Made by a program: the position numbers and the translations under genes. From positions 1 to 45,136 of IMG/VR virus record IMGVR_UViG_3300020190_002958: a DNA stretch of 45,136 nt; one strand, 5' to 3'. Origin of the DNA: a virus. Under the pieces are notes generated by a model. It searched no databases, was not told where the DNA came from, and was given only the letters and a program-made list of their open reading frames with translations. This document shows positions 2,465 to 28,297 of the stretch, in pieces (positions within the stretch are counted from its first letter, which is position 1; every line of letters begins with the position of its first letter).

Positions 2465-3625
2465 ATGAAATCTTATACAATTTATTTAGATATGGATGGT
2501 GTGCTTACTGACTGGGTAGGTAAGTTTAAACAATTGAGCAATGGAATAGATTCTGAAGATTATAAACAACGTTATGGCGAAAAAGCATATTATGACTTGG
2601 TAGATTCGGTTGGTGAACGTTTTTATTCACAATTGGAATGGTTGCCTGATGGCAAACAAATTGTAGATTATTTAAAAGATTATCCAGCTATAATATTGAG
2701 TAGCGGACCAACTGAATATGCTCAGGTTGGCAAAAAAATTTGGTTAAAGAATAACAACATACCTTTTAAGGCAATAATTGTAAGCAATAAAAAATACAAG
2801 GCAGATTACGCAAATAATAATAGTATATTAATTGATGATGATATTGATAATATTAACAATTTTAGAAAAGCGGGCGGTATTGGTGTATTACATAAAAATG
2901 CAAAAGATACTATAGAACAATTGAAACAAATACCAAATTTAGAAAAAAGATGGTATATTGAAAATACTACATTAAATCCAGAATTTTGGAATGGTAAAGT
3001 TTTAAAATCAGAAATTCAGCAAAAGCTTTTACAACACGCAAAATATTTCTATAAAGAAACAGAATTACAATCACCTATTGTTGATATTATAATGGTGGGA
3101 TCTAGTGCGGGTTACAACTGGACAAGTACTAGTGATATAGATCTACACATTGTATCGGACTTTAAACAAATAAATACAGATACAAATCTAGTCAAAAACT
3201 ACGTTAATGTATTACGTACGTCATGGAACGAAAAACACAACATCAAAATCAACAATCACGAAGTCGAAGTTTATATACAAGATATAAATCATCCAAATAG
3301 AAGTCATGGTATCTATTCAATTCTTAAAAATACATGGATAAAAGAACCTGACTTTGAAGGGGTTAATTTGGATAAAAATGAAATACTTAAAATTTATAGA
3401 GACTATAAAGCACAAATAGAGGCCGCCATATCCACAAAAAATCCAAATATAATGAAGGATCTAACAAAGAAAATTACTGATTATCGTAATGACGGATTGG
3501 CAACTCATGGAGAATTCAGCATACCAAACATAGTTTATAAACTTTTACGTAGACGAAACGACATGAAAAAATTGTATGATTCAATGAACGCCGCAATAGA
3601 CACAAAATTAAGCATAACAGTTTAA
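2465..3625 (+). CDS. HAD-type phosphatase fused to a Pol-beta-like nucleotidyltransferase
   Basis: The product is 386 residues with two domains. Residues 1-155 are a HAD hydrolase of the 5'-nucleotidase type. Motif I is DMDGVLTDW (9-17, nucleophile Asp9 and acid/base Asp11), motif II is ILSS (77-80), the motif III Lys is near 112, and motif IV is LIDDDIDN (around 122-129). Residues about 185-300 resemble a DNA polymerase beta-type nucleotidyltransferase: GS at 212-213 followed by SDIDLH (223-228), with a possible third acidic residue in HEVEVYIQ. The C-terminal 90 residues are helical and basic. The likely reactions are removal of a phosphate by the first half and transfer of a nucleotide by the second. 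The substrate is unknown. It sits upstream of the tail-tube gene with a late-type motif, so it may be made late. Confidence 0.75.
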   Translation: MKSYTIYLDMDGVLTDWVGKFKQLSNGIDSEDYKQRYGEKAYYDLVDSVGERFYSQLEWLPDGKQIVDYLKDYPAIILSSGPTEYAQVGKKIWLKNNNIPFKAIIVSNKKYKADYANNNSILIDDDIDNINNFRKAGGIGVLHKNAKDTIEQLKQIPNLEKRWYIENTTLNPEFWNGKVLKSEIQQKLLQHAKYFYKETELQSPIVDIIMVGSSAGYNWTSTSDIDLHIVSDFKQINTDTNLVKNYVNVLRTSWNEKHNIKINNHEVEVYIQDINHPNRSHGIYSILKNTWIKEPDFEGVNLDKNEILKIYRDYKAQIEAAISTKNPNIMKDLTKKITDYRNDGLATHGEFSIPNIVYKLLRRRNDMKKLYDSMNAAIDTKLSITV

Positions 3626-11584: not shown

Positions 11585-14377
11585 ATGGCTGAATATAGAA
11601 AATATGCATGGTGGGAAATTCAAGCTATACCCGATTATCTTATAAAAGAAATAAGACGTAGATCCAAGAATTATGGATTAAATTATCCAACCAACGGTAC
11701 CGAAATGTTGAATGGAAATTTCGACAACTATAAAGGCCCATTACGTACATGGGTAAGATTTACTTCGAATGGAAACGCTAAACCTGTAAACAATGCTTTA
11801 GTGCCACTTACACCATTATTAGAACCTTATAGCAACGGTGGTGGTGCAAATGGTTTTGTATTACAAGGAGGAGATGGTTTTTATACCTCATACGGTATAG
11901 ATACAAAGACTTTTAGTAAAACAGAACCTGTTATAGGTTATGATGTTGATGGCAAGCCTTATAAATTAAATTTAAAAAGTTATTTAGATGGATCGTGGAA
12001 ACAAACACAAACAACGTCTGGCGGTGTTACTTATAAATTTCCACAACTAAGTGATTCACCAACACTTTTACCACAACCCGGTATAACAGGTATAAGCATA
12101 AAACAAAACGGTGAATTGATACTTGAAGCTGAAGTGAACATAATTTGTTATTCATTAGCTCAACTAGAATTTTTAACACCATTCTTTTTTACACCCGGTA
12201 TTTCTACTTTATTGGAATTTGGATATCACATTTTTAATCAAAAATCTTTAATTGATATAAGTACAGATTCAATTCAAGCTGAAAATGGTACATTGTCTTT
12301 CTTCATACCAGGCGGACGTGAAAAAACGTATTTTCATAGTGCATATTCAAATGGTAATTATGGAGTAATAACGGGTATAATTACAAATTATTCATATGAT
12401 ACAACGGATGGATTAAAATACGATTGTAGAGTAAACATAATGTCCGGTCAGGCATTATATGCAGGTGTAAACGTTAAAAACAGCGTAGAGACAGAAACAA
12501 CTGATTCGACAAAATGTACACCATCATTTAAATCGTTTTTAACTTATGTACTACAGAGTTTAGAAGGTTGTATAACACATGAAGGAGGTGGACAAAACCT
12601 AATTACATATCTGTCTCAAATAACTCGGAATCAAAATTTAATTTCAACACAAAACGCGCAAGGCAATACAACTAGTAAAAGATTAAATGCTCAACAAGAA
12701 ACAGATCTACAAACATTTCTAATTGGTAGTAACAAAGAATTACCTCTTAACTTTTATAGAGGACAAACTGAAGATAGAATATTTTTAGGAAGAAAACCAA
12801 ATATTGATGGTAATCATTTATGGCCGTTAACAACTTTAGATAATCAATATACAAAAATATTTGATAAAGATTTTGATTCCGGCAATCAAAACATAATTTA
12901 CATACAATTTGATTTATTTTTTGAAATATTAAACTTCTTTTTTGAAGATAACAAAAGTATAGTATTCAATGGTATCGACGCCGATTCCAATCCAATAGCC
13001 GCACATGTAAATCTGATATCATGTAATTCCGATGTTTTACTTATACCAAATAGATTCGCGCCGAAATTCAACAAAGGTAGTATAAATGGTTTCTTAACAT
13101 CCGATTACGCAGATGATGCGTTTACAAAACAAACATCGGACTGGACTTATATAGAGGATGAAATAAAAGGATCACATTTCGAAAAACCATTTTTAAAGGC
13201 TCAAAAAATATTTAAACAAGATGGAATTTATAGAGATGATCATGATGTCGTGATAAATAGATTATTTTATGGACTATATGCTAATAATTCGAAGACAAAA
13301 GGATATGATGATGAGGGAACCGAAGACGGCAAACCGAAATTAATCGATAAAACTATTGGTTCATGTGCTTTTCCACAAATCAAAGACGTTCAATTTAGAA
13401 AAAATTCAAATGGAAAGGGAAGCATATATGCAGCTCACACTTATGGATTTTTGAAACATTTATATGTTTCAACTGATTTGCTTATACAAGCATGTAATGA
13501 ATCTTCGATAACAACTGTAAAAGAACTATTAACTTTTATTTTACCACGTATAAATTCAGCTGTAAATAATTATTGGGAACTTGATATTACTATGGGTGAT
13601 AACAAGTTACAAATTGTAGATAAAAACTTTGGTAATAAAGATAATATACAACAAATCTACATGTTCGATATAGGTAATAGTAAAGGTTTATTTAAACAAA
13701 TAAGTTTTAATACAAGTTTAGTAGATGAACAAACAAATCAAATTATATTTGGTGGTAACCTAAACCAAGATCCTACAGATACAGATACGCAATCTAGTAT
13801 TGATACTTTAGTTCCATTAAGATACGGTGACCGTTTATTTGAGATTACACGTAAACAAAATCCCGCCGGAACTAATTCTAACTTACCTCAACCGAAACTG
13901 GAAATTCAAAACAATCCAGCTGCACAATTACAAATTCAAGCAAGTAACCTCGGAGATTCGGGTGTGCCTATTATGACATATGTTAAACCTTTAAACGGTT
14001 TTAACGTTGCGGCCGGTTTACCACCACCAGATGAAGGTAAGACGTATTTGTATAATTTCAAAGCCTTAGCATTAAATCAAGTAAATAGTAATTTATTGAC
14101 CGCTATATTGACAGACAAAGATATTGATAATAACTTTAACATATATAGTCAGGTAAATCCAAATTTAGTTTTAACTGTGACGTTAGAAGGAATTTATGGA
14201 TTTGAAATGTATCAACATTTTTCTATAAGTAATTTACCAAGACCGTATTTACCTGGAAACATAATTTTTATGATTACTGAAGTGAATCATATTGTACAAA
14301 GTGGAATGTGGGAAACTGCAATAACTGCTTTGCCAAGATGTATAGCCGGAGAAAACATAGAATACATAACTGTATGA
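11585..14377 (+). CDS. Large baseplate hub-like protein
   Basis: The product is 930 residues with no signal peptide or membrane segment. Near residues 165-230 it carries ISIKQNGELILEAEVNIICY and LEFLTPFFFTPGISTLLEFGY, the latter resembling the PG...L.WGY turn of phage hub proteins. The last 60 residues (FEMYQHFSISNLPRPYLPG, then IFMITEVNHIVQSGMWETAI, TALPR) match the closing beta structure common to gp27-like and VgrG-like hub proteins. A Cys-containing segment (TKCTPSFKS, EGCITHEGG) lies near residue 310. I infer a hub or wedge protein that binds the spike or tube. It is coupled to the LysM gene upstream and overlaps the next gene by ATGA. Confidence 0.6.
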   Translation: MAEYRKYAWWEIQAIPDYLIKEIRRRSKNYGLNYPTNGTEMLNGNFDNYKGPLRTWVRFTSNGNAKPVNNALVPLTPLLEPYSNGGGANGFVLQGGDGFYTSYGIDTKTFSKTEPVIGYDVDGKPYKLNLKSYLDGSWKQTQTTSGGVTYKFPQLSDSPTLLPQPGITGISIKQNGELILEAEVNIICYSLAQLEFLTPFFFTPGISTLLEFGYHIFNQKSLIDISTDSIQAENGTLSFFIPGGREKTYFHSAYSNGNYGVITGIITNYSYDTTDGLKYDCRVNIMSGQALYAGVNVKNSVETETTDSTKCTPSFKSFLTYVLQSLEGCITHEGGGQNLITYLSQITRNQNLISTQNAQGNTTSKRLNAQQETDLQTFLIGSNKELPLNFYRGQTEDRIFLGRKPNIDGNHLWPLTTLDNQYTKIFDKDFDSGNQNIIYIQFDLFFEILNFFFEDNKSIVFNGIDADSNPIAAHVNLISCNSDVLLIPNRFAPKFNKGSINGFLTSDYADDAFTKQTSDWTYIEDEIKGSHFEKPFLKAQKIFKQDGIYRDDHDVVINRLFYGLYANNSKTKGYDDEGTEDGKPKLIDKTIGSCAFPQIKDVQFRKNSNGKGSIYAAHTYGFLKHLYVSTDLLIQACNESSITTVKELLTFILPRINSAVNNYWELDITMGDNKLQIVDKNFGNKDNIQQIYMFDIGNSKGLFKQISFNTSLVDEQTNQIIFGGNLNQDPTDTDTQSSIDTLVPLRYGDRLFEITRKQNPAGTNSNLPQPKLEIQNNPAAQLQIQASNLGDSGVPIMTYVKPLNGFNVAAGLPPPDEGKTYLYNFKALALNQVNSNLLTAILTDKDIDNNFNIYSQVNPNLVLTVTLEGIYGFEMYQHFSISNLPRPYLPGNIIFMITEVNHIVQSGMWETAITALPRCIAGENIEYITV

Positions 14378-14760
14378 TTTTAAATACATCAGATTCAATT
14401 AAGCAAAAATTAAAGGTTGGAAGTTTCAATCCTATAGAACCTGTACCAACCGCTTTGAAAATTACCAAAGAAATGTATGAAAAAATATTTATTGATAGAT
14501 ATTTTGTATACCGAGTTACAAACAATACAATGTATGAGGTTTTACAAGACAACTATGATTTAATTGTTGATGTTATATACAAAAAAGTAAAAATTAAGTG
14601 GAAACTAAGTGGACCTGCAAACAGTGTTTATATAAATAATGTATTACAAACACCCGGTGTCACTGAATATAATACGAAACAAATTAAAATAGGAAGTAAA
14701 ACTATACCTCTACTTGAAGATTATTTAAAAAATCCGTTACAATATTATTTAGGATATTGA
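14374..14760 (+). CDS. Hypothetical 128-residue baseplate-operon protein
   Basis: The start is the ATG at 14374, whose ATGA overlaps the stop of the hub-like gene. Longer in-frame starts lie wholly inside that gene. The protein (MILNTSDSIKQKLKVGSFNP at the N terminus, YLKNPLQYYLGY at the C terminus) has a central lysine- and valine-rich beta segment (IVDVIYKKVKIKWKLSGP). It is not recognised. Translational coupling to a baseplate gene suggests a structural or assembly role. Confidence 0.65.
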   Translation: MILNTSDSIKQKLKVGSFNPIEPVPTALKITKEMYEKIFIDRYFVYRVTNNTMYEVLQDNYDLIVDVIYKKVKIKWKLSGPANSVYINNVLQTPGVTEYNTKQIKIGSKTIPLLEDYLKNPLQYYLGY

Positions 14761-14790
14761 CTTTTTAAAAAATTGTTTTAGAGTATATAT

Positions 14791-16086
14791 GTGGACAACT
14801 ATCGTAACATATATCTTAAATTTGTATTAGACAGTGTGAATAATCATGTTGCAAAAAGCAAAGTTATTGCGGCATTGGTTTATGATATTGATACAAAAAA
14901 TACAAAAACTTATAACTTTTGTCATCCAGATTTATGTTTAAATTGTGATTTTAAAACCTTTGTAGAAGGAATAAAACAGTCAAAAATTTATGTAAATAAT
15001 AAAAAATCTTATAGTTTTTTTCTTAAAAATCATAAATTAATTGATGTAAATTTGTTTGATTTTATTGAAAAAAATGAATTAAATGATGATATTAGTTGTC
15101 ATCAATATGATGTTTTGTTTTATAGAAATCAAAGTTTGAATAACTTTAACAAAATTATTCCGTTATCGATTCATCAACTTATTTTTGACAAAGAAGTAAA
15201 GTTGTACCGAAGTAAATTTAATGGAGACACACAATCATATTGTTTTAAATTTTTCAATGATGTAATTTCAAATACCTTATATGAGGTTGAAAGAAACGGT
15301 TTGAAAGTAGATGAAGCTGTTTTTAAACAACATTTTGATTCAAAGGTATATGATGGATTTGTTTATAGTGAATATTATATATACAATCCTACTGGTAGAC
15401 CAAGCAATCGATTTGACGGTGTGAATTATGCGGCTTTGAACAAAGAAAATGGTTGTAGAAGTGCTTTTGTAAGCAGATATGGATCTGACGGATTTTTGTT
15501 CATGATAGATTTTACAGGATTTCATCCATATATTGTATCTAATTTAATAGGTTATACTGTACCAGACAATGAGACAATATATGAACATCTTGCTAAACAA
15601 TATTTTAATATTTCAGAGGTCGATTCGGAATTCTTAAGCAAAAGTAAGAAATTGACTATGGTAAATCTGTATGGTGAAATTAAACCTGTCTACTTAAAAA
15701 TACCATACTTCGAAAAGATTGATAAGTTAAAAGACCAATATTGGAATTCGTTTGTTAAAAAGGGTTATGTAACTACGCCTATTTATAAACGAAAAATCAC
15801 AGATAAACATATTGAAGATGCAAATAAAAACAAGTTATTTAGTTACATAATTCAATCGGCTGAAACTGAATATGGTATCAATAGCTTAAAGAATGTAAAC
15901 GAATACGTTATAGACAAAGAAATTAAACCTATTCTATATACGTACGACAGTATATTGTTTGATATCAACAAGTCTTGTGGTAAATCAGTAATAGAAGATA
16001 TTATACAGATTGTCAAAAACAAGAAATTTAAAGTAAAAACATATTTTGGCAATAATTACCAAGAATTACAACAAGTGATTATGTGA
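14791..16086 (+). CDS. Compact family-A DNA polymerase-like protein
   Basis: The product is 431 residues, starting at GTG. Residues 195-400 follow the family A (Pol I type) palm and fingers. TGRPSNRFDGVNY (201-213) equals the T.GR.S....N element. CRSAFVS precedes motif A, where IDFTGFHP keeps the catalytic Asp (240). In motif B, Lys286 and Tyr294-Gly295 have the spacing of the E. coli dNTP-binding Lys758/Tyr766, but the Arg of the helix is not matched. IIQSAETE (353-360) resembles the IQG..A element. Motif C is YDS with Asp386 in place of HDE. The first 190 residues may be a decayed exonuclease domain. At half normal size and with altered motif C, its activity is uncertain. It lies just after baseplate genes, unlike gp43 (family B) of T4. 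Confidence 0.72.
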   Translation: MDNYRNIYLKFVLDSVNNHVAKSKVIAALVYDIDTKNTKTYNFCHPDLCLNCDFKTFVEGIKQSKIYVNNKKSYSFFLKNHKLIDVNLFDFIEKNELNDDISCHQYDVLFYRNQSLNNFNKIIPLSIHQLIFDKEVKLYRSKFNGDTQSYCFKFFNDVISNTLYEVERNGLKVDEAVFKQHFDSKVYDGFVYSEYYIYNPTGRPSNRFDGVNYAALNKENGCRSAFVSRYGSDGFLFMIDFTGFHPYIVSNLIGYTVPDNETIYEHLAKQYFNISEVDSEFLSKSKKLTMVNLYGEIKPVYLKIPYFEKIDKLKDQYWNSFVKKGYVTTPIYKRKITDKHIEDANKNKLFSYIIQSAETEYGINSLKNVNEYVIDKEIKPILYTYDSILFDINKSCGKSVIEDIIQIVKNKKFKVKTYFGNNYQELQQVIM

Positions 16087-16101: not shown

Positions 16102-18420
16102 ATGAAGGTCGAATCTATAATAAACGATATTTGTTGCGATAATCGAATCAAAAACGGAGTATTTGAGATAAATAATCCAGATCACGTTTTTATTTTACAA
16201 GAATACCTAGAAAAACTAGGATTAGACATAGAGACAGTAACCGAAAAAACCGCTAAGTTATTTGAAGCCGGTAGATTTCCTGAAAGACAGGCTTATAATA
16301 AAAATGGTATACTAGTTACATTTCCTACTAAAGAATATCGTAATCGTGCCGTCAACAAAGGTACACACTTCGCTGAAAACCCTAAAAAAAGTGTATCAAA
16401 TATTTTTACAAAAGACGACGATTTAGCAACCGCTGATGTTTCAAAACCAGAAAAACCCGTAACACAATTGGTTGATAAAGAAGTAGGAGATCTAGAAAAT
16501 TCCGACAAAGACACACGTTCACCTGAAGAAATTAAACAAGATTCACAAGCTGTAGTAGGTCTTCTAACTACACCAACATTTCAATATGCGTTGGAAGAAG
16601 CAAAATCATTTGGTTTTTATAACAAAGGATTTCTGTGGTACGATTCAAATGGTGAATATATTGGCAAACAAAAGTATGATGAACAATTAGGTAAAAGTAT
16701 AATTGTACCCGAAGCAATTAGTCCTGCTGTGTATTTAAAAAAAGCAGCTAAAGTTGTAGAAATACTTGATAGTGAGTTGTTTGAAACTCTTAATTTTTTA
16801 AAAGACGCTGATAAAAGCAAAAAAACTCTAATATTTGAAACTATTCCGATATTAGTAGCAAATGGTATACGTGATTTTACAAACTTAAATGCAAGTGGTA
16901 ACTATCAAGAATATGCTATCGATTTTTTGAAGAAATGGGGAGCACTACGTTCCAAGTTGGAAAAGATTGAAAATCCTATATTCAAAGAAGAAAATTTAAA
17001 GATATATGATCTTGTAAATAAAGATCTTATTGAAATCGGCGGTGTCGGTAGTATTTCATTGTCAGATTTAGGTACACCATCTGATTTTATTCATAAAGAT
17101 ATCAAAAAGTTTTATAAATTTGCGGGTAAATATAATGATGTTAAATCAGGTGAAAATGCCGGTAGGAGTAAAGAAAATACAGCAGACATTGTATTGATAT
17201 ACGGTGGTACGGCGGATGATGTTTATAAGGCACTTGATGATGGACAAATTGATCAACAAGATGTTGATTCACTTGCAAAAGTAAAAGATAAAAATATAAC
17301 TTTTGCGCTGGTAAGTTTAAAAGCTGGTAGTGCACGACTAGGACATGTATTACAAAAGTTAGTAACATATGTCGGTACAGAAATACCAATTGCACCTGGA
17401 AAATCTACAAAAGCTGTAAAACAAGAAGTATTGAGTGAAGCTGTATTGGATACTATCATGAATAGTTTCAAACAATTTGCTCAAATAATAAAGGATATTC
17501 CTGATCAGTTACAAAAGATATACAAGGATTTTATCGACAAGATAAAACCTTTTGAAACTAAAATCACAAATTTTCTTTTTAAAGAATTGAACTTGGATGT
17601 CAAACGTATGGAAACAAGTGAAATGCGAGATCTAAAGATGTTAGAAATGGAAATTGAAAAAGACATAAATACTCTTAACGAAGATGAAGCTGTATGTGAT
17701 AAAAATTCCGCTGTATTAAAATCATCTCTAATTAAGAATCTAACATCATTTAAGAAGATATTACAATCATCACATGAAGATGATAGATTGATGGCACGGA
17801 TAAACGAATTTTCAAAAAATCCACTATTGCTCGAATACTTCCCTATTGTAATATCAAAAGAGGAAAGTGATTTGACTTCAAAGTTAAGAATCAACATTAT
17901 TAGTATAATCGATAATATATTGAAAAATAATAAGGAAAATGATTGTATAGCACGTTTGGATTTACAACCTATATTGAAATATCGCAGCAATATATTAGCA
18001 CTTGGATATGTTGAATTGATACTTGATAATATATTAAAAGATACCAGCACATCTTCTCCAGAAAAAATTCGTGAAGATTTTATTAAATTGGCGAGTACAT
18101 TATCATCCGAAGCTGTTTTCGGTAACAATATAAGTTTACCACTAATAAAATTTACAGGATCAAAAATTGAAAGATTAAGATTTAAAGGTAATTATAAATT
18201 GGAAGTACCTACCAAAATTGATAAATTAAAACTTGGAAAATTACGTATTAACCTAATACAAGAAGATGGATACATGACCGTTAATCTATTTTTATTTAAC
18301 GGTATTATATCAGATGATGATATTCCAAAACCAACATATGTAAATTACTTAATGGACAGTTCCAGTGGAAGTAAATTTTCTTTCAAGATTGAGGGACAAA
18401 AAGTAGTAGAAAAAATATGA
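16102..18420 (+). CDS. Large late-type protein of unknown function
   Basis: The product is 772 residues and not recognised. Residues 1-100 hold a distinct motif-rich part (LFEAGRFPERQAYNKNG, LVTFPTKEYRNRAVNKGTHF) that looks like a conserved module. A low-complexity acidic linker follows to about 155. The middle (about 345-430) contains NTADIVLIYGG and, about 35 residues later, ITFALVSLKAGSARLG. This D...SLK.G arrangement recalls the core of PD-(D/E)XK nuclease folds, but Ser stands where Glu is expected. The last 300 residues are helical. It carries the four-base-spaced TATTTATT motif, so it is probably a late, possibly virion, protein. It overlaps the next gene by ATGA. Confidence 0.6.
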   Translation: MKVESIINDICCDNRIKNGVFEINNPDHVFILQEYLEKLGLDIETVTEKTAKLFEAGRFPERQAYNKNGILVTFPTKEYRNRAVNKGTHFAENPKKSVSNIFTKDDDLATADVSKPEKPVTQLVDKEVGDLENSDKDTRSPEEIKQDSQAVVGLLTTPTFQYALEEAKSFGFYNKGFLWYDSNGEYIGKQKYDEQLGKSIIVPEAISPAVYLKKAAKVVEILDSELFETLNFLKDADKSKKTLIFETIPILVANGIRDFTNLNASGNYQEYAIDFLKKWGALRSKLEKIENPIFKEENLKIYDLVNKDLIEIGGVGSISLSDLGTPSDFIHKDIKKFYKFAGKYNDVKSGENAGRSKENTADIVLIYGGTADDVYKALDDGQIDQQDVDSLAKVKDKNITFALVSLKAGSARLGHVLQKLVTYVGTEIPIAPGKSTKAVKQEVLSEAVLDTIMNSFKQFAQIIKDIPDQLQKIYKDFIDKIKPFETKITNFLFKELNLDVKRMETSEMRDLKMLEMEIEKDINTLNEDEAVCDKNSAVLKSSLIKNLTSFKKILQSSHEDDRLMARINEFSKNPLLLEYFPIVISKEESDLTSKLRINIISIIDNILKNNKENDCIARLDLQPILKYRSNILALGYVELILDNILKDTSTSSPEKIREDFIKLASTLSSEAVFGNNISLPLIKFTGSKIERLRFKGNYKLEVPTKIDKLKLGKLRINLIQEDGYMTVNLFLFNGIISDDDIPKPTYVNYLMDSSSGSKFSFKIEGQKVVEKI

Positions 18421-18806
18421 ATAGACAACTTTTATGCACATTTTCGGACAGTAAAACTTACACTTTAACAATCGAGAACATAAAATCTTTTTATGAACTA
18501 ATAGATAACAAAATATTTGTATTTTCAAACGTAAAGAATTTACGAGAAGTATATTTGACATATAATGTTAATAAAAAAGATGATAATACTACAAAATTTG
18601 CAAACACAATAAGTGTACACAGAAAAAAAGAAACAAACACTTTGTATACACTAAATGCAATGAATAAAATTATAGAAGAAGAAAATGGCAGTTTTGACAA
18701 AAATTATAAATTAAATTGGAAATTGTATAAAAACACAATCATTCTTACAGGCGAACACGGTTTGCGAATTATAGATTTAAAATTATTCTCAATTGTAACT
18801 ATCTGA
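18417..18806 (+). CDS. Hypothetical 129-residue protein
   Basis: The start ATG overlaps the upstream stop (ATGA), so translation is coupled to the 772-residue protein. The product is polar and lysine- and asparagine-rich (VYLTYNVNKKDDNTTKFA), with a beta-rich end (LKLFSIVTI). No motif is recognised. It may be a partner of the preceding protein. Confidence 0.6.
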   Translation: MNRQLLCTFSDSKTYTLTIENIKSFYELIDNKIFVFSNVKNLREVYLTYNVNKKDDNTTKFANTISVHRKKETNTLYTLNAMNKIIEEENGSFDKNYKLNWKLYKNTIILTGEHGLRIIDLKLFSIVTI

Positions 18807-18934: not shown

Positions 18935-19765
18935 ATGGCATTAGATATTAGCAGACTAAAGAGTCGTTTGAACTCACTTTCAAACCAAGGAAGTAAAACA
19001 AATCTTATTTGGAAACCCAAGCCAGGTAAGCAAGTTGTAAGAATCGTTCCATACAAGTACACTCCTGACAATCCATTTATTGAACTGAAGTTTCATTATA
19101 ATTTAAATGGAAAGACTTATATGTCTCCCGATAGTTTTGGTCGTCCAGACCCTATTGTTGAGTTTAGTAATCGTCTTAAAAAGACAGGTGATAAAGAAGA
19201 TTGGAAAAATGGTCGTAAACTAGAACCAAAGATGCGTACATTTGCACCTATATTTGTTCGTGGTGAAGAACATGAAGGAGTAAAATTTTGGGGATTTGGT
19301 AAGCAAGTCTATCAAGAAATTCTTTCGATAATCAGTGATCCGGACTACGGTGATATTACCGACCTAACCAATGGACGTGATATTGTTGTAGAGTTTCGTA
19401 CCGCTGAAGAAAGTGGAAAGAGTTTTCCCGAAACAACGATTCGTGTAAAACCAAACGCAACCACAGCTGTGGATCCCAAAAATACAAGTCTCGTAGACTC
19501 AATTAAGAATCAAATCAATATTTTGGATTTGTTTCCTGAGTTGAATTATGAAGAACTAAAAGATGTTATGGATAAATGGTTGAATCCAGATTCAGGTGAA
19601 ACAAATGAAGGCACAGTTAGCGCAGGTACAGTAGATGAAGAAACAACTGAAGCAGTTGCTGCAAGTGCAGCAAAATCAGTACCAGTTTCTCCAACAGCTA
19701 CTAAAGCAAAGGTAGCAGCATCCGATGATGTTACAAAAGCATTTGACGACTTGTTTAACTCTTAA
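18935..19765 (+). CDS. 32: Single-stranded DNA-binding protein, T4 gp32 type
   Basis: The product is 276 residues. The N terminus (LDISRLKSRLNSL) and the WKPKPGKQVVRIVPYKY segment match the gp32 family, followed by an OB-fold core with FWGFGKQVYQEI and ETTIRVKP. A Ser/Thr/Ala-rich linker leads to an acidic C-terminal tail (SDDVTKAFDDLFNS), used in T4 to contact replication partners. The T4 core holds a zinc ion through one His and three Cys. Here the equivalent stretch (YMSPDSFGRPDPIVEFSN, near residue 60) has Ser and Asp instead, and the whole protein has no Cys. It protects and organises single-stranded DNA with UvsX and helicase encoded downstream. A terminator follows at once. Confidence 0.9.
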   Translation: MALDISRLKSRLNSLSNQGSKTNLIWKPKPGKQVVRIVPYKYTPDNPFIELKFHYNLNGKTYMSPDSFGRPDPIVEFSNRLKKTGDKEDWKNGRKLEPKMRTFAPIFVRGEEHEGVKFWGFGKQVYQEILSIISDPDYGDITDLTNGRDIVVEFRTAEESGKSFPETTIRVKPNATTAVDPKNTSLVDSIKNQINILDLFPELNYEELKDVMDKWLNPDSGETNEGTVSAGTVDEETTEAVAASAAKSVPVSPTATKAKVAASDDVTKAFDDLFNS

Positions 19766-19824: not shown

Positions 19825-20958
19825 ATGGCAAAAAAACAAAGTAAAGAAAATCAAAGAGATGAACTTATTGAACTATTAGCTGAAGAGTTAAACAAAGCTA
19901 ATAAAGATGGTGGTAAGATTGCTTATTTCTTAGACGAACAAGAAAATCCTGCAGAAATTAGTGATTGGATTAGTACTGGTTCATCAATACTAGATTTAGC
20001 TATTAGTAATCGTCCTCACGGTGGTTTGCCTGTTGGTAAAATGGTCGAATTTAACGGTTTGGAAGGTACTGGTAAAAGTCTAGTATCCGCACACGTTGTA
20101 GCTGATACTCAACGAAAAGGTGGAGTTGCAGTAGTAATTGACACTGAAAATGCAGCTGCTCCTGAGTTTTGGAAGAGTTTAGGTGTAGATCTATCTAAGT
20201 TACTATATGTTCAATGTGAAACAGTTGAAGATATTTTTGCTCAGATGGAGAAGATGATTGCAATTGTTCGCAAGAGCAACAAAGATCGTATTCTAACAAT
20301 CATCGTTGACTCTGTAGCAGCAGCATCAACAAAGGTAGAACTAGAAAGTGATCATGGTAAAGATGGTTACGCAACTGGTAAGAGTATTATTATTAGTAAA
20401 GCAATGCGTAAGATTACCACTATGATTGGCCGTCAGAAAGTTCTTACTGTATTTACTAACCAACTACGTCAAAATCTAAATGCCATGGCGTTTGGTGACA
20501 AGTATGTAGTAAGCGGTGGTAAGGCACTAGCATATCACTGTAGTGTACGTGTCCGTTTGACTAATACAGGTAAGCTCAAGAAGGGTGAAGAAATCATCGG
20601 CAATGAGTGTAAAGCTGTTGTTGTAAAAAATCGTATGGGTCCACCACAACGGCAAGCAAGTTTCGATATCTATTTTGATAGCGGTATTGCTGATTATGGT
20701 AGTTGGATTAAAGTTTTAAAAGAACAAGGTCTAATTAAACAGGGTGGAGCTTATTACACATACAAGAAGAATGATGAATCAGACTGGAAGTTTCAATCCA
20801 AAGATTTTGTAAGCGTGATGCAGACCGACAAAGAATTAAGTGAAGAAATTTACTTGAAGATTTGTGACGCTGTTATCATGAAATACAAAAATCCAAACAG
20901 TCAAATTGTTGAAGATGCTGTTGTTGATACCAACGAAGAAACTGCTGGTAACGAATAG
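19825..20958 (+). CDS. uvsX: RecA/UvsX-type recombinase
   Basis: The product is 377 residues. Walker A is GLEGTGKS (78-85), followed by VVIDTENAA (the catalytic Glu region). Walker B is in LTIIVDSVAA. FTNQLRQNLN is loop L1-like, and VSGGKALAYHCSVRVRL matches the RecA switch and strand-exchange region. It catalyses homologous pairing and strand invasion for recombination-dependent replication and repair, acting on DNA coated by the gp32 product upstream. The P-loop is of the GTGKS type, nearer to bacterial RecA than to the GPSKS-like loop of T4 UvsX. The C terminus is acidic. It lies 59 bases after gp32 with a terminator between, so it needs its own promoter or read-through. Confidence 0.92.
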   Translation: MAKKQSKENQRDELIELLAEELNKANKDGGKIAYFLDEQENPAEISDWISTGSSILDLAISNRPHGGLPVGKMVEFNGLEGTGKSLVSAHVVADTQRKGGVAVVIDTENAAAPEFWKSLGVDLSKLLYVQCETVEDIFAQMEKMIAIVRKSNKDRILTIIVDSVAAASTKVELESDHGKDGYATGKSIIISKAMRKITTMIGRQKVLTVFTNQLRQNLNAMAFGDKYVVSGGKALAYHCSVRVRLTNTGKLKKGEEIIGNECKAVVVKNRMGPPQRQASFDIYFDSGIADYGSWIKVLKEQGLIKQGGAYYTYKKNDESDWKFQSKDFVSVMQTDKELSEEIYLKICDAVIMKYKNPNSQIVEDAVVDTNEETAGNE

Positions 20959-20977: not shown

Positions 20978-21005
20978 GTTTTTCCGCATTGCAATGCGGA
21001 AAAAC
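20978..21005. terminator. 28-base perfect palindrome, bidirectional terminator-like
   Basis: A perfect inverted repeat of 14 bp (GTTTTTCCGCATTG at 20978-20991 and its complement) begins 19 bases after the uvsX stop. The arms start with T5 and end with A5, so each strand has a GC-rich core hairpin (CCGCATT/AATGCGG) followed by T's. It can terminate in either direction. Confidence 0.75.
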
Positions 21006-21570: not shown

Positions 21571-21695
21571 ACAACTTTGACAAAAAAGAAATAAAGAAGT
21601 TATTTTCTTTATTTCAAAACATAGAAAGAGATTCCGTCACCGGAGGACTTAAAAAATCACTTAATAGTGATGTCCTTTTGGTTGACGGATTGTAG
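21567..21695 (+). CDS. N-terminal fragment of RNase H (5'-3' exonuclease), broken frame
   Basis: The product is 42 residues: MNNFDKKEIKKLFSLFQ at the start and SDVLLVDGL at the end, then TAG. LLVDG is the first metal-binding strand of FEN-family nucleases, and homologues continue directly with NTYIR. That continuation is found in the next frame five bases later (TTG, TAGTG, AAC). The start ATG overlaps the stop of the decayed gene upstream. The stop shares its G with the GTG of the downstream part (TAGTG). This could allow reinitiation, need a frameshift, or simply mark a broken gene. Confidence 0.65.
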   Translation: MNNFDKKEIKKLFSLFQNIERDSVTGGLKKSLNSDVLLVDGL

Positions 21696-22642
21696 TGAAC
21701 ACTTATATTCGGTGTTTCATGGCCGTACCTAGCATGAACGATGACGGCATTCATACTGGTGGTATTGCTGGTTTTCTTAAAAGTGTAGGCTATGCTGTAA
21801 AATTATTACAACCAACCAGAGTTATTGTTGTGTTTGATGGTAATGGTGGTTCTCAAAAACGCCGTAAAATATATCCTGATTATAAAAATGGCAGACGTAC
21901 AAATATACGTTTAAATAGAACTTACGAAGATTTAAGTGACACGGCAGTTGCAAGTCAAAATTTTAAAAAAGAATTGATACGTACGGTAAATTATCTTGAT
22001 ACGTTACCTATTACATTGATGGCAATAGATCAAATTGAAGCTGACGATACTATTGCTTATCTCGCTAGAGAAACATTCAAAGATAGTAATGTAACTATCA
22101 TGTCTACAGACAAAGACTTTTTACAGTTGGCAAGTGATAAGATAAAAATTTGGAGTCCTGTAAAGAAAAAGATTTTTGGTTGTAAAGAAATATTAGATGA
22201 ATATGGTATTACATGTAATAATTTTATTTATTACAGAATAATGGAAGGTGACGAGAGTGATAATATACCAGGTTTAAATGGCATAGGATTAAAACGTGTT
22301 ATTCAGGCGTTTCCATTTTTATCTAATGATAAACAGTTTTCATTACAAGAACTGTATAATTACTGTGAAAATCACAAAAGCAAATATAAAATTTACGAAA
22401 GAGTTTTAGACAATAAAATTCTTCTCGAAAGGAACTATGCTTTGATGCAATTGTGCGATAGTTCAGTACAATCATTTACGCAATTACGTATTGAAGAAAT
22501 AATTAATAAACCAATACGTCGTATAGATAAGCTTACTTTTAGTAAACTTATAACTGAAGATAAGATGTGGAATAATTTACCAAACTATATGGTTTGGTTG
22601 AGTGAGACGTTTGGTAAACTAAATAGTTTTGTTCAAGACTGA
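21695..22642 (+). CDS. RNase H / 5'-3' exonuclease (FEN family), main part
   Basis: The product is 315 residues from a GTG at 21695 that overlaps the TAG of the upstream fragment. Metal-binding acidic residues of the family are visible in VIVVFDGNGGS, IEADDTIAYLA and MSTDKDFLQL. The helix-three-turn-helix DNA-binding part is GDESDNIPGLNGIGLKR. The enzyme removes RNA primers and flaps from lagging-strand fragments, working with gp32 and the helicase. The first catalytic Asp (VDG) is missing here and lies in the 42-residue fragment just upstream, so this polypeptide alone lacks one metal ligand. Whether two chains assemble or a recoding event joins them is unknown. The helicase gene starts 53 bases after the stop. 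Confidence 0.82.
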   Translation: MNTYIRCFMAVPSMNDDGIHTGGIAGFLKSVGYAVKLLQPTRVIVVFDGNGGSQKRRKIYPDYKNGRRTNIRLNRTYEDLSDTAVASQNFKKELIRTVNYLDTLPITLMAIDQIEADDTIAYLARETFKDSNVTIMSTDKDFLQLASDKIKIWSPVKKKIFGCKEILDEYGITCNNFIYYRIMEGDESDNIPGLNGIGLKRVIQAFPFLSNDKQFSLQELYNYCENHKSKYKIYERVLDNKILLERNYALMQLCDSSVQSFTQLRIEEIINKPIRRIDKLTFSKLITEDKMWNNLPNYMVWLSETFGKLNSFVQD

Positions 22643-22695: not shown

Positions 22696-24081
22696 ATGGA
22701 AGAGAAACATATTATTGATAACTTAAAAAAATTCGGTCTAGACTTTCAAATTAAGTGTATTTCAAGTCTTGTCTCAGATAGACAATTTCTTGAAAGGATA
22801 CATGACATAATTGACGTTGAATCATTTGAAACAGATGCTCACCAATGGATTATAAAAGAAATTATCTTTTATTTTAACCAATACAAAGATTTACCGACAC
22901 TTAACGTTTTTAAAGTTAGAATTGAAACGATAAGCAACAAAGTTTTAACACAAAGTGTAGTAGATAATCTCAAGTTGATATATCAAAAGATGAATGATAA
23001 TGATATCACTTTCATCAAGGAACAGTTCTTAGAATTTTGCAAGAATCAAAAGTTAAAAAACGCGATTTTTGAAAGTGCGGATCTATTGGCTACTGGTCAG
23101 TATGAAAAAATCAAACACGTTGTAGACCAGGCTATGAAAGCCGGCATAGAACGTAATATCGGTCATGACTATAGTGAAGACGTTGAAAAACGTATGAGTA
23201 TAATGAGTCGTAACTGTATTAAAACCAACTGGCAAGAAATCGACAGTATCATGGATGGTGGTCTTGGACCTGGGGAACTTGGTATTATTACAGCCTGTGC
23301 TGGTAGTGGTAAAAGTTGGGTACTAAGCAAACTTGGTGCAGAAGCTATGAGACAAGGAAAGAATGTTGTACATTTTACGTTGGAACTAAATGAAAATTAT
23401 GTTGGTTTACGCTATGATAGTTGTTTCACAGGTATTGACTTTCAGAATATACGTAACAACGTTGATATTGTTAGACAAAAGATTGGAGAAATTTCCGGTA
23501 AACTTGTAATCAAATATTTTCCTATCAAGACTATATCAGCTTACAGTTTAAAAGCTCACGTCGAACGACTTGCTGTGCTTGGTACTAAGATTGATATGAT
23601 TATTGTTGATTATGCTGATATCCTAAGACCAACGCACAGTGAACGCAACAGTAACAGCTATAGTGAAGCCGGTGGTATCTATGAAGAACTTCGTAGTATT
23701 GCCGGTGAACTTCAAGTTCCTATTTGGAGTGCTTCACAAAGTAATCGTGCTGCTATGGATGAAGATATCATTCAGGCAAACAATATTGCTGATAGTTATC
23801 GTAAAATTATGACTGCTGACTTTGTTTTGAGTCTAAGTCGTAAAGTCAATGATAAACAAGCTAACACTGCACGGTTTCACGTAATTAAAAATCGTTTCGG
23901 ACCAGATGGTTTGACTTTTCCAAGTAAAATGAATGCTGGTTGTGGTCAGATTGAAATATATTCCGAAAATAGTAGAGAAGGTCTAGCAATTCAAAATGAA
24001 ATGATGGATGGTGAGAATCAAGTCAAAAAGATGTTGAAAAATAAATGGAATGCTCATAATAGTGATGAAGATGATGAATAA
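22696..24081 (+). CDS. 41: Replicative DNA helicase, DnaB/gp41 type
   Basis: The product is 461 residues. The N-terminal 150 residues are helical, as in DnaB-family N domains. Walker A is ACAGSGKS (200-207). FTLELNENYVGLRYDSC is the H1a/catalytic Glu region, IIVDYADILRPT the Walker B motif, and WSASQSNRAA the H3 sensor with its Gln. The product would form a hexamer that unwinds DNA 5' to 3' at the fork. The position after gp32, uvsX and RNase H genes fits a replication module. The start ATG (TTTAATTATG) has no Shine-Dalgarno site. The primase partner (gp61) is not in this window. Confidence 0.88.
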   Translation: MEEKHIIDNLKKFGLDFQIKCISSLVSDRQFLERIHDIIDVESFETDAHQWIIKEIIFYFNQYKDLPTLNVFKVRIETISNKVLTQSVVDNLKLIYQKMNDNDITFIKEQFLEFCKNQKLKNAIFESADLLATGQYEKIKHVVDQAMKAGIERNIGHDYSEDVEKRMSIMSRNCIKTNWQEIDSIMDGGLGPGELGIITACAGSGKSWVLSKLGAEAMRQGKNVVHFTLELNENYVGLRYDSCFTGIDFQNIRNNVDIVRQKIGEISGKLVIKYFPIKTISAYSLKAHVERLAVLGTKIDMIIVDYADILRPTHSERNSNSYSEAGGIYEELRSIAGELQVPIWSASQSNRAAMDEDIIQANNIADSYRKIMTADFVLSLSRKVNDKQANTARFHVIKNRFGPDGLTFPSKMNAGCGQIEIYSENSREGLAIQNEMMDGENQVKKMLKNKWNAHNSDEDDE

Positions 24082-27634: not shown

Positions 27635-28297
27635 ATGAGTAAAATTATCAGATTGGAAACTTATTTGCGTAAATTAGTACGTGAAACGATTGAAGAAAAA
27701 AAGACTGAAGTGGACAAGACTTGGGAAGAAATGATTGATGTCCTAAGTAAAGATGTTCAAAAGGTCAACGATAGTATATCAGTCTATAAGAACGACGCTG
27801 GTCATTATGTTATATGTGGATGTGAACCACATCATTTTGATTTAAATCCAATAGTACACAATTTATTCGATTGTACGTATTTCAGAGACAACACACAAAG
27901 AGAGAAAAAACTTAGTATTGCGTTTGAGGATTTAAAAAAATATATAAAAGACAAATTAACTGAAAAAAATTTAAATTATGTAGATTCCGCTTATGAAAAA
28001 AATGTTGAAAATAGTAAAGATAAAGACGGTGGTAAAAAAGGCGATAAACTTGGTCAAGAAAGTATGGTTGATCCTGAAAAAGACAATAAGCCATCTAAAC
28101 AAATTAAAGCCGAACCGATGAATAAAGAAGATGATGATCCTACACAACCTATGAGGGAGGTAGGTAAAATTACTAAATTAGTAGACTACGATTCTAAGAA
28201 ACCAAGTTATAAACCCCCTACATTACCAAAAAATTTACAAAAACTTGTAATTAAATTAAAAAAGAACAAACAAAATAAAAAATCAAAGAAAAAATAA
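27635..28297 (+). CDS. Hypothetical charged protein, late-type
   Basis: The product is 220 residues. The N terminus (KIIRLETYLRKLVRETIEEK) is an amphipathic helix of a type seen at the start of several T4-like virion proteins. Residues 60-110 could fold (DAGHYVICGCEPHHFDLNP). From about 125 the protein is low-complexity, first acidic/basic mixed, ending in a strongly basic tail (LKKNKQNKKSKKK). No function is recognised. The basic tail could bind nucleic acid, and the promoter motif points to late expression. The gene is followed nine bases on by the holin-like gene. Confidence 0.6.
   Translation: MSKIIRLETYLRKLVRETIEEKKTEVDKTWEEMIDVLSKDVQKVNDSISVYKNDAGHYVICGCEPHHFDLNPIVHNLFDCTYFRDNTQREKKLSIAFEDLKKYIKDKLTEKNLNYVDSAYEKNVENSKDKDGGKKGDKLGQESMVDPEKDNKPSKQIKAEPMNKEDDDPTQPMREVGKITKLVDYDSKKPSYKPPTLPKNLQKLVIKLKKNKQNKKSKKK

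Follow-up and report, generated by a model that had tools for sequence, protein, structure and literature searches.

The gene described here lies at positions 14791-16086 (+ strand) of the window, the whole stretch of 45,136 nucleotides of viral DNA that was analysed (IMG/VR record IMGVR_UViG_3300020190_002958). Its open reading frame is borne out as a real coding sequence of 431 amino acids, as the sequence-only reading had it, with GTG as initiation codon, and encodes a compact homologue of family A DNA polymerases. Upstream lies a block of baseplate/tail-type genes, including one for a large protein without a PHROG match of its own (11585-14377, + strand), and the stretch directly before the polymerase gene holds a promoter-like box, TTGACT-N16-TAGAGT (14757-14784, + strand). 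On the 3' side follow, also on the + strand, p772 (16102-18420), which is absent from some relatives; p129 (18417-18806), a near-constant companion directly upstream of gp32; a gp32-like single-stranded DNA binding protein (18935-19765, PF08804, 5.7e-13); a UvsX/RecA-type recombinase (19825-20958); a separate gene for a 5'-3' exonuclease of the FEN/Pol I N-domain type (21695-22642, PF02739, 6.4e-28), whose first residues are encoded upstream of 21695 in another frame; and a DnaB/gp41-like replicative helicase (22696-24081), after which comes RNR. After the baseplate-type block the genes run p150, polymerase, (p772), p129, gp32, UvsX, exonuclease, DnaB, and of about 110 loci nearly every one keeps to this order within the reach of its contig. 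The gene had earlier been placed away from gp32 and uvsX, which does not hold, as gp32 starts only 2.85 kb downstream at 18935 and the UvsX/RecA-type gene at 19825, in an order conserved nearly everywhere. A strong terminator-like hairpin of 12 pairs (20978-21005) is found after the UvsX/RecA gene and before the exonuclease gene.

A TTGAC-type box directly 5' of the polymerase is present in 28 of 45 close-clade loci against 0.8 expected from shuffles, a count inflated by the relatedness of the loci. This share is the highest among the 13 genes of the block; elsewhere in it the box is rare (before dnaB in 9/37, before the exonuclease gene in 5/36, and never before p772 or gp32), and among the more distant half of the members it is not clear. 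As a generic scan for promoters in the window by itself did not exceed background, the evidence for a promoter lies in the conserved position and not in a single site. The GTG start in the window falls 6 nucleotides past the -10-like hexamer, and the polymerase mRNA is possibly leaderless.

Searched on its own, the window protein gives no match in Pfam, PHROGs or the PDB sequences, PF00476 included, yet its kinship with PolA becomes visible with, and only with, a family profile. With tblastn, the protein matches Flavobacterium phage immuto, LR756508 (484 kb) and Microcystis phage Mel-JY01; scans of IMG/VR yielded 34 homologues in the first round and at least 571 in the second, and a few of the homologues lie on contigs of bacterial MAGs. 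Family members are about 420-470 amino acids long, and PF00476 is matched by 35 of 71 (E<=0.001; best 3e-12), several of which exceed its curated cut-off. Pairwise between close members the median dN/dS is 0.062, a descriptive value as many of the 47 pairs share members and do not amount to 47 independent tests; the gene is under strong purifying selection, with dN/dS about 0.06.

The AlphaFold model of the window protein, made with a 71-sequence alignment, has a pLDDT of 95.7 and a pTM of 0.91, and its top PDB matches are Klenow-type PolAs. VIA-align places residues 1-427 of the model onto 308-876 of Bst (Bacillus stearothermophilus) Pol I with Z 28.3 and an rmsd of 3.2 over 404 aligned residues, so that the comparison with Klenow proposed in the sequence-only reading returns a Klenow-type fold. 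The family profile finds Klenow with hmmsearch at E 1e-9, and in hhalign it aligns with five ordinary PolAs (E. coli, T7, Ajay, CRP-3 and immuto gp199) at a probability of 99.1 and E 1e-18, with the motifs in register. In the numbering of E. coli Pol I, R203 in the TGRPS motif (15391-15405) corresponds to R668; in motif A (15508-15525), D240 corresponds to D705 and H245 to the steric-gate residue E710; in motif B (15646-15675), K286 equals K758, M290 takes the position of F762 and Y294-G295 equals Y766-G767; Q355 (15853-15855) equals Q849 in both hhalign and the family alignment; and in motif C (15943-15951) Y385-D386-S387 stands for H881-D882-E883. All of the motifs listed earlier from the letters, from TGRPS, Asp240, Lys286 and Tyr294-Gly295 to IIQ355SAE and Y385-D386-S387, are thus present, and the two aspartates that a misplaced metal site would have discredited, D240 and D386, fall by alignment on D705 and D882. 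Fold, profile and motif evidence agree in supporting a protein of the family A (Pol I/Klenow) fold with an intact palm, as originally proposed.

The equivalents of R668, D705, K758, Q849 and D882 are invariant in all 71 homologues and that of Y766 in 70, which argues that the motifs did not arise by chance. Other positions are just as consistently altered: E710 is replaced by His in 71/71, so that the canonical steric gate is absent, H881 has become Tyr and E883 Ser or Ala. The arginine of motif B (R754) is, as had been noted, lost; the window protein has Leu there, at a position that is not conserved across the family. A likeness to T7 RNA polymerase, suggested by K-x3-M-x3-YG in motif B, is weakened by the family alignment, in which the residue at the F762 position is Met in only 16 of 71 members and Phe in 53.

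The thumb-bearing interval, which runs from the conserved Gly (G544) to R668, spans 20-40 amino acids in all 71 compact members against 122-234 in the five ordinary PolAs (198 in T7 gene 5), and the secondary structure of the model contains no thumb helices in it. The R668-D705, K758-Y766 and Q849-D882 intervals are roughly unchanged in length, whereas the fingers interval, Y766-Q849, is 57-63 residues long compared to 73-111 in ordinary PolAs. Read from these intervals and from the model's secondary-structure string, loss of the thumb is well supported. The acids of the 3'-5' exonuclease, D355, E357, D424 and D501, are either not conserved or deleted, and the ExoIII region is deleted as well; judged by alignment, the N-domain is exonuclease-like without the catalytic acids, and the proofreading site is absent, although some true PolAs lack these acids too. 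Compared with the Klenow fragment (E. coli, B. stearothermophilus; PF00476), the compact protein shares nearly the full length of the fold and palm motifs A, B and C, and differs in the missing thumb segment and exonuclease acids, the shorter fingers and the three substitutions in motifs A and C. T7 gene 5 polymerase, a phage family A enzyme used in the profile, has, unlike the compact protein, a full thumb with an insertion and a long N-domain. In a tree of the palm, a long and fully supported branch separates the compact sequences from the five ordinary PolAs used. The sequence-only reading was right about the palm pattern and overlooked that the thumb is deleted and the exonuclease domain dead, as well as the fixed change of E710 to His, the promoter box and the separate replicase of relatives.

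PolB is found in 16 of the 29 records bearing the compact polymerase, most of which are fragments. The compact gene occurs in six records of 150 kb or longer; five of them also have PolB, and the sixth, immuto, has a full-length 778-aa PolA, gp199, besides its compact polymerase. Mel-JY01 encodes PolB and clamp-loader genes, and LR756508 contains PolB pieces and a PolIII alpha match. Among 20 further contigs, PolB is present in 8, including the close relatives L007 and L032, and seven more IMG/VR contigs all carry it, the compact gene being shown in six of these; the contigs that lack PolB are shorter ones, possibly fragments. A gp43-type gene, which had been suggested as something to look for, thus occurs in relatives, but PF00136 finds no match in the window record, itself a fragment. 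The status of the compact protein as a second polymerase is well supported; it is drawn from relatives, the window being a fragment without PolB. As main replicase, divergent or otherwise, the compact protein is disfavoured, as relatives have a further polymerase, PolB or, in the case of immuto, full-length PolA. The gp43-type PolB of T4 (PF00136), the polymerase of T4-like phages, belongs to another family than the compact protein.

The gene for gp199 of immuto (NC_055915.1, 37898-40231) adjoins the GroES/GroEL genes, and this phage holds two family A polymerases of different type. Its compact polymerase, gp001 (YP_010114413.1), is a true homologue, 32% identical and in the same neighbourhood, with the GenBank label 'DNA polymerase family A', which is silent on the loss of the thumb and on gp199 as a second, full-length PolA. 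In Mel-JY01 the homologue, WWT39333.1 ('hypothetical protein'), lies between baseplate-type genes and those for SSB, RecA, exonuclease and helicase 41, and carries no polymerase annotation; PolB and the clamp-loader genes are elsewhere in the same phage. Phages with the compact polymerase appear to share their distantly T4-like, environmental character with the uncultivated Far-T4 phages (PMC4360716). The reference Far-T4 phage, Rhodothermus phage RM378 (PMC4360716), is likewise distantly T4-like and has a PolB match within a frame of 532 aa, and a compact polymerase was not found in it.

I give about an even chance to the view that the protein is a second, accessory polymerase of family A descent and not a replicase, filling short gaps as a 'split Pol I' with the 5'-3' exonuclease. 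The catalytic domain of family A consists of palm, fingers and thumb (PMC9224347), and because a large part of the contact with the backbone comes from the thumb (PMC9224347), an enzyme without it would bind DNA weakly, with low processivity, and add few nucleotides per encounter. It may be recruited by a partner, whether gp32, UvsX, DnaB or p129. The separate exonuclease would, for instance, clear primers or flaps at Okazaki fragments or in intermediates of recombination, the compact polymerase would then fill the resulting short gaps, and the two would together form a split Pol I beside a gp43-type replicase. This exact job I infer by analogy with Pol I and from the gene context, in which the exonuclease of the window sits five genes downstream, a distance that counts against a split Pol I. 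Loss of E883 and R754 could reduce the activity. The earlier suggestion of a repair polymerase is compatible with the data.

Other roles can be ranked, from lesion bypass or D-loop extension through primase and dead relative to ejected protein. A polymerase that extends the D-loops made by UvsX or crosses damage, and does not fill gaps or serve Okazaki fragments, would share its block with gp32 and UvsX, as is the case, and the absent proofreading site and trimmed thumb and fingers are what a low-fidelity, distributive enzyme is expected to show; as the 5'-3' exonuclease is just as constant in the block, I regard this role as possible but doubtful. It is unlikely that these thumbless family A proteins constitute a new functional class that depends on a partner (p129, gp32 or a clamp) for its grip on DNA, with changed sugar selection, possibly chain-starting or accepting ribonucleotides, and convergent with thumbless primase-type polymerases. 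Starting chains and using ribonucleotides are traits of those polymerases, and a primase or primase-polymerase permitted to do so by thumb loss and the altered steric gate would fit the His at E710 in 71/71, the DnaB helicase and SSB genes nearby, and a motif C, Y-D-S/A, similar to the H-D-S of single-subunit RNA polymerases. However, a His side chain retains bulk that may shut ribonucleotides out, and immuto and Mel-JY01, two complete relatives, each encode a DnaG-type primase (phrog_47), by which the argument that these phages lack one also falls; a priming role is therefore quite improbable.

The losses of E883, R754, the thumb and the exonuclease acids could equally befit a catalytically dead relative with a structural or regulatory function, but the invariance of the R668, D705, K758, Q849 and D882 equivalents in 71 homologues, and of Y766 in 70, makes this very improbable. 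The baseplate/tail-type genes upstream in nearly all loci would suit the earlier idea of a virion protein ejected with the DNA, the least probable of these readings and one to which I attach hardly any weight, as in close relatives a promoter-like box of its own, of a kind not seen before p772 or gp32, separates the polymerase from the tail genes, and its linkage to the downstream replication genes is constant.

The family assignment itself is already known, from the GenBank annotation of immuto gp001; new here, being absent from the literature searched, are loss of the thumb, the fixed changes in the active site, the status as second polymerase and the operon logic. That literature, which had subscription journals outside its scope, yielded neither a family A polymerase without a thumb nor T4-like phages with a second polymerase of this family, and the thumbless compact type was not found by term in two surveys of viral PolAs (PMC6302109, PMC9069017). 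The latter admitted a sequence only if residue 762 was F, L or Y, a filter by which the window protein, with Met, would have been excluded. In a large group of T4-like phages, most of them uncultivated, the compact polymerase has the appearance of a core gene; if so, these phages run two DNA polymerases. A thumbless family this widespread and strongly conserved bears on how little of the hand suffices for templated synthesis and what substitutes for its grip; with two cultured phages carrying the gene (Flavobacterium phage immuto and Microcystis phage Mel-JY01), this can be tested at once, and an exonuclease-free polymerase of 50 kDa may serve as a tool.

The p129 protein has an invariant Arg-Lys pair and a confident model (pLDDT 93) without a clear match in the PDB; as a candidate for a known DNA-binding fold, it reached a best E of 0.12 in Foldseek and VIA Z scores no higher than 6.2. 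It co-occurs with the polymerase in the same six phage records, and as the full-length gp32 of the clade is also best matched in those six, the co-occurrence reflects clade membership and not a partnership of p129 and polymerase. Loci that seemed to have p129 without a polymerase do not stand up, since L208 carries one about 8 kb away and L216 and L226 have less than 5 kb upstream; nor does an in-frame stop in the L208 (L229) relative, where the TAA is the gene's own natural stop, at which the match ends.

The active-site motif of the exonuclease, LVDGLN, is interrupted in the window by TAGTG (21679-21710). The same break occurs at the same place in L005, L017, L018, L036, L039, L040, L042, L153, L163 and L164, and L030 and L032 have TAGTTA at this position, while the frame is unbroken in about 28 other loci. 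Its recurrence in diverged phages argues against a sequencing error, and it can be read as a gene split in two with overlapping stop and restart, or else as a programmed stop-codon bypass. Elsewhere in the window, the product of 2465-3625 has an N-terminal match to 5'-3' deoxyribonucleotidase and a C-terminal part that by eye resembles a Pol-beta-type nucleotidyltransferase (GSSAGYNWTSTSDIDLH), and 27635-28297 gives a weak, below-cut-off match to the colicin E5 ribonuclease domain (E 0.007).
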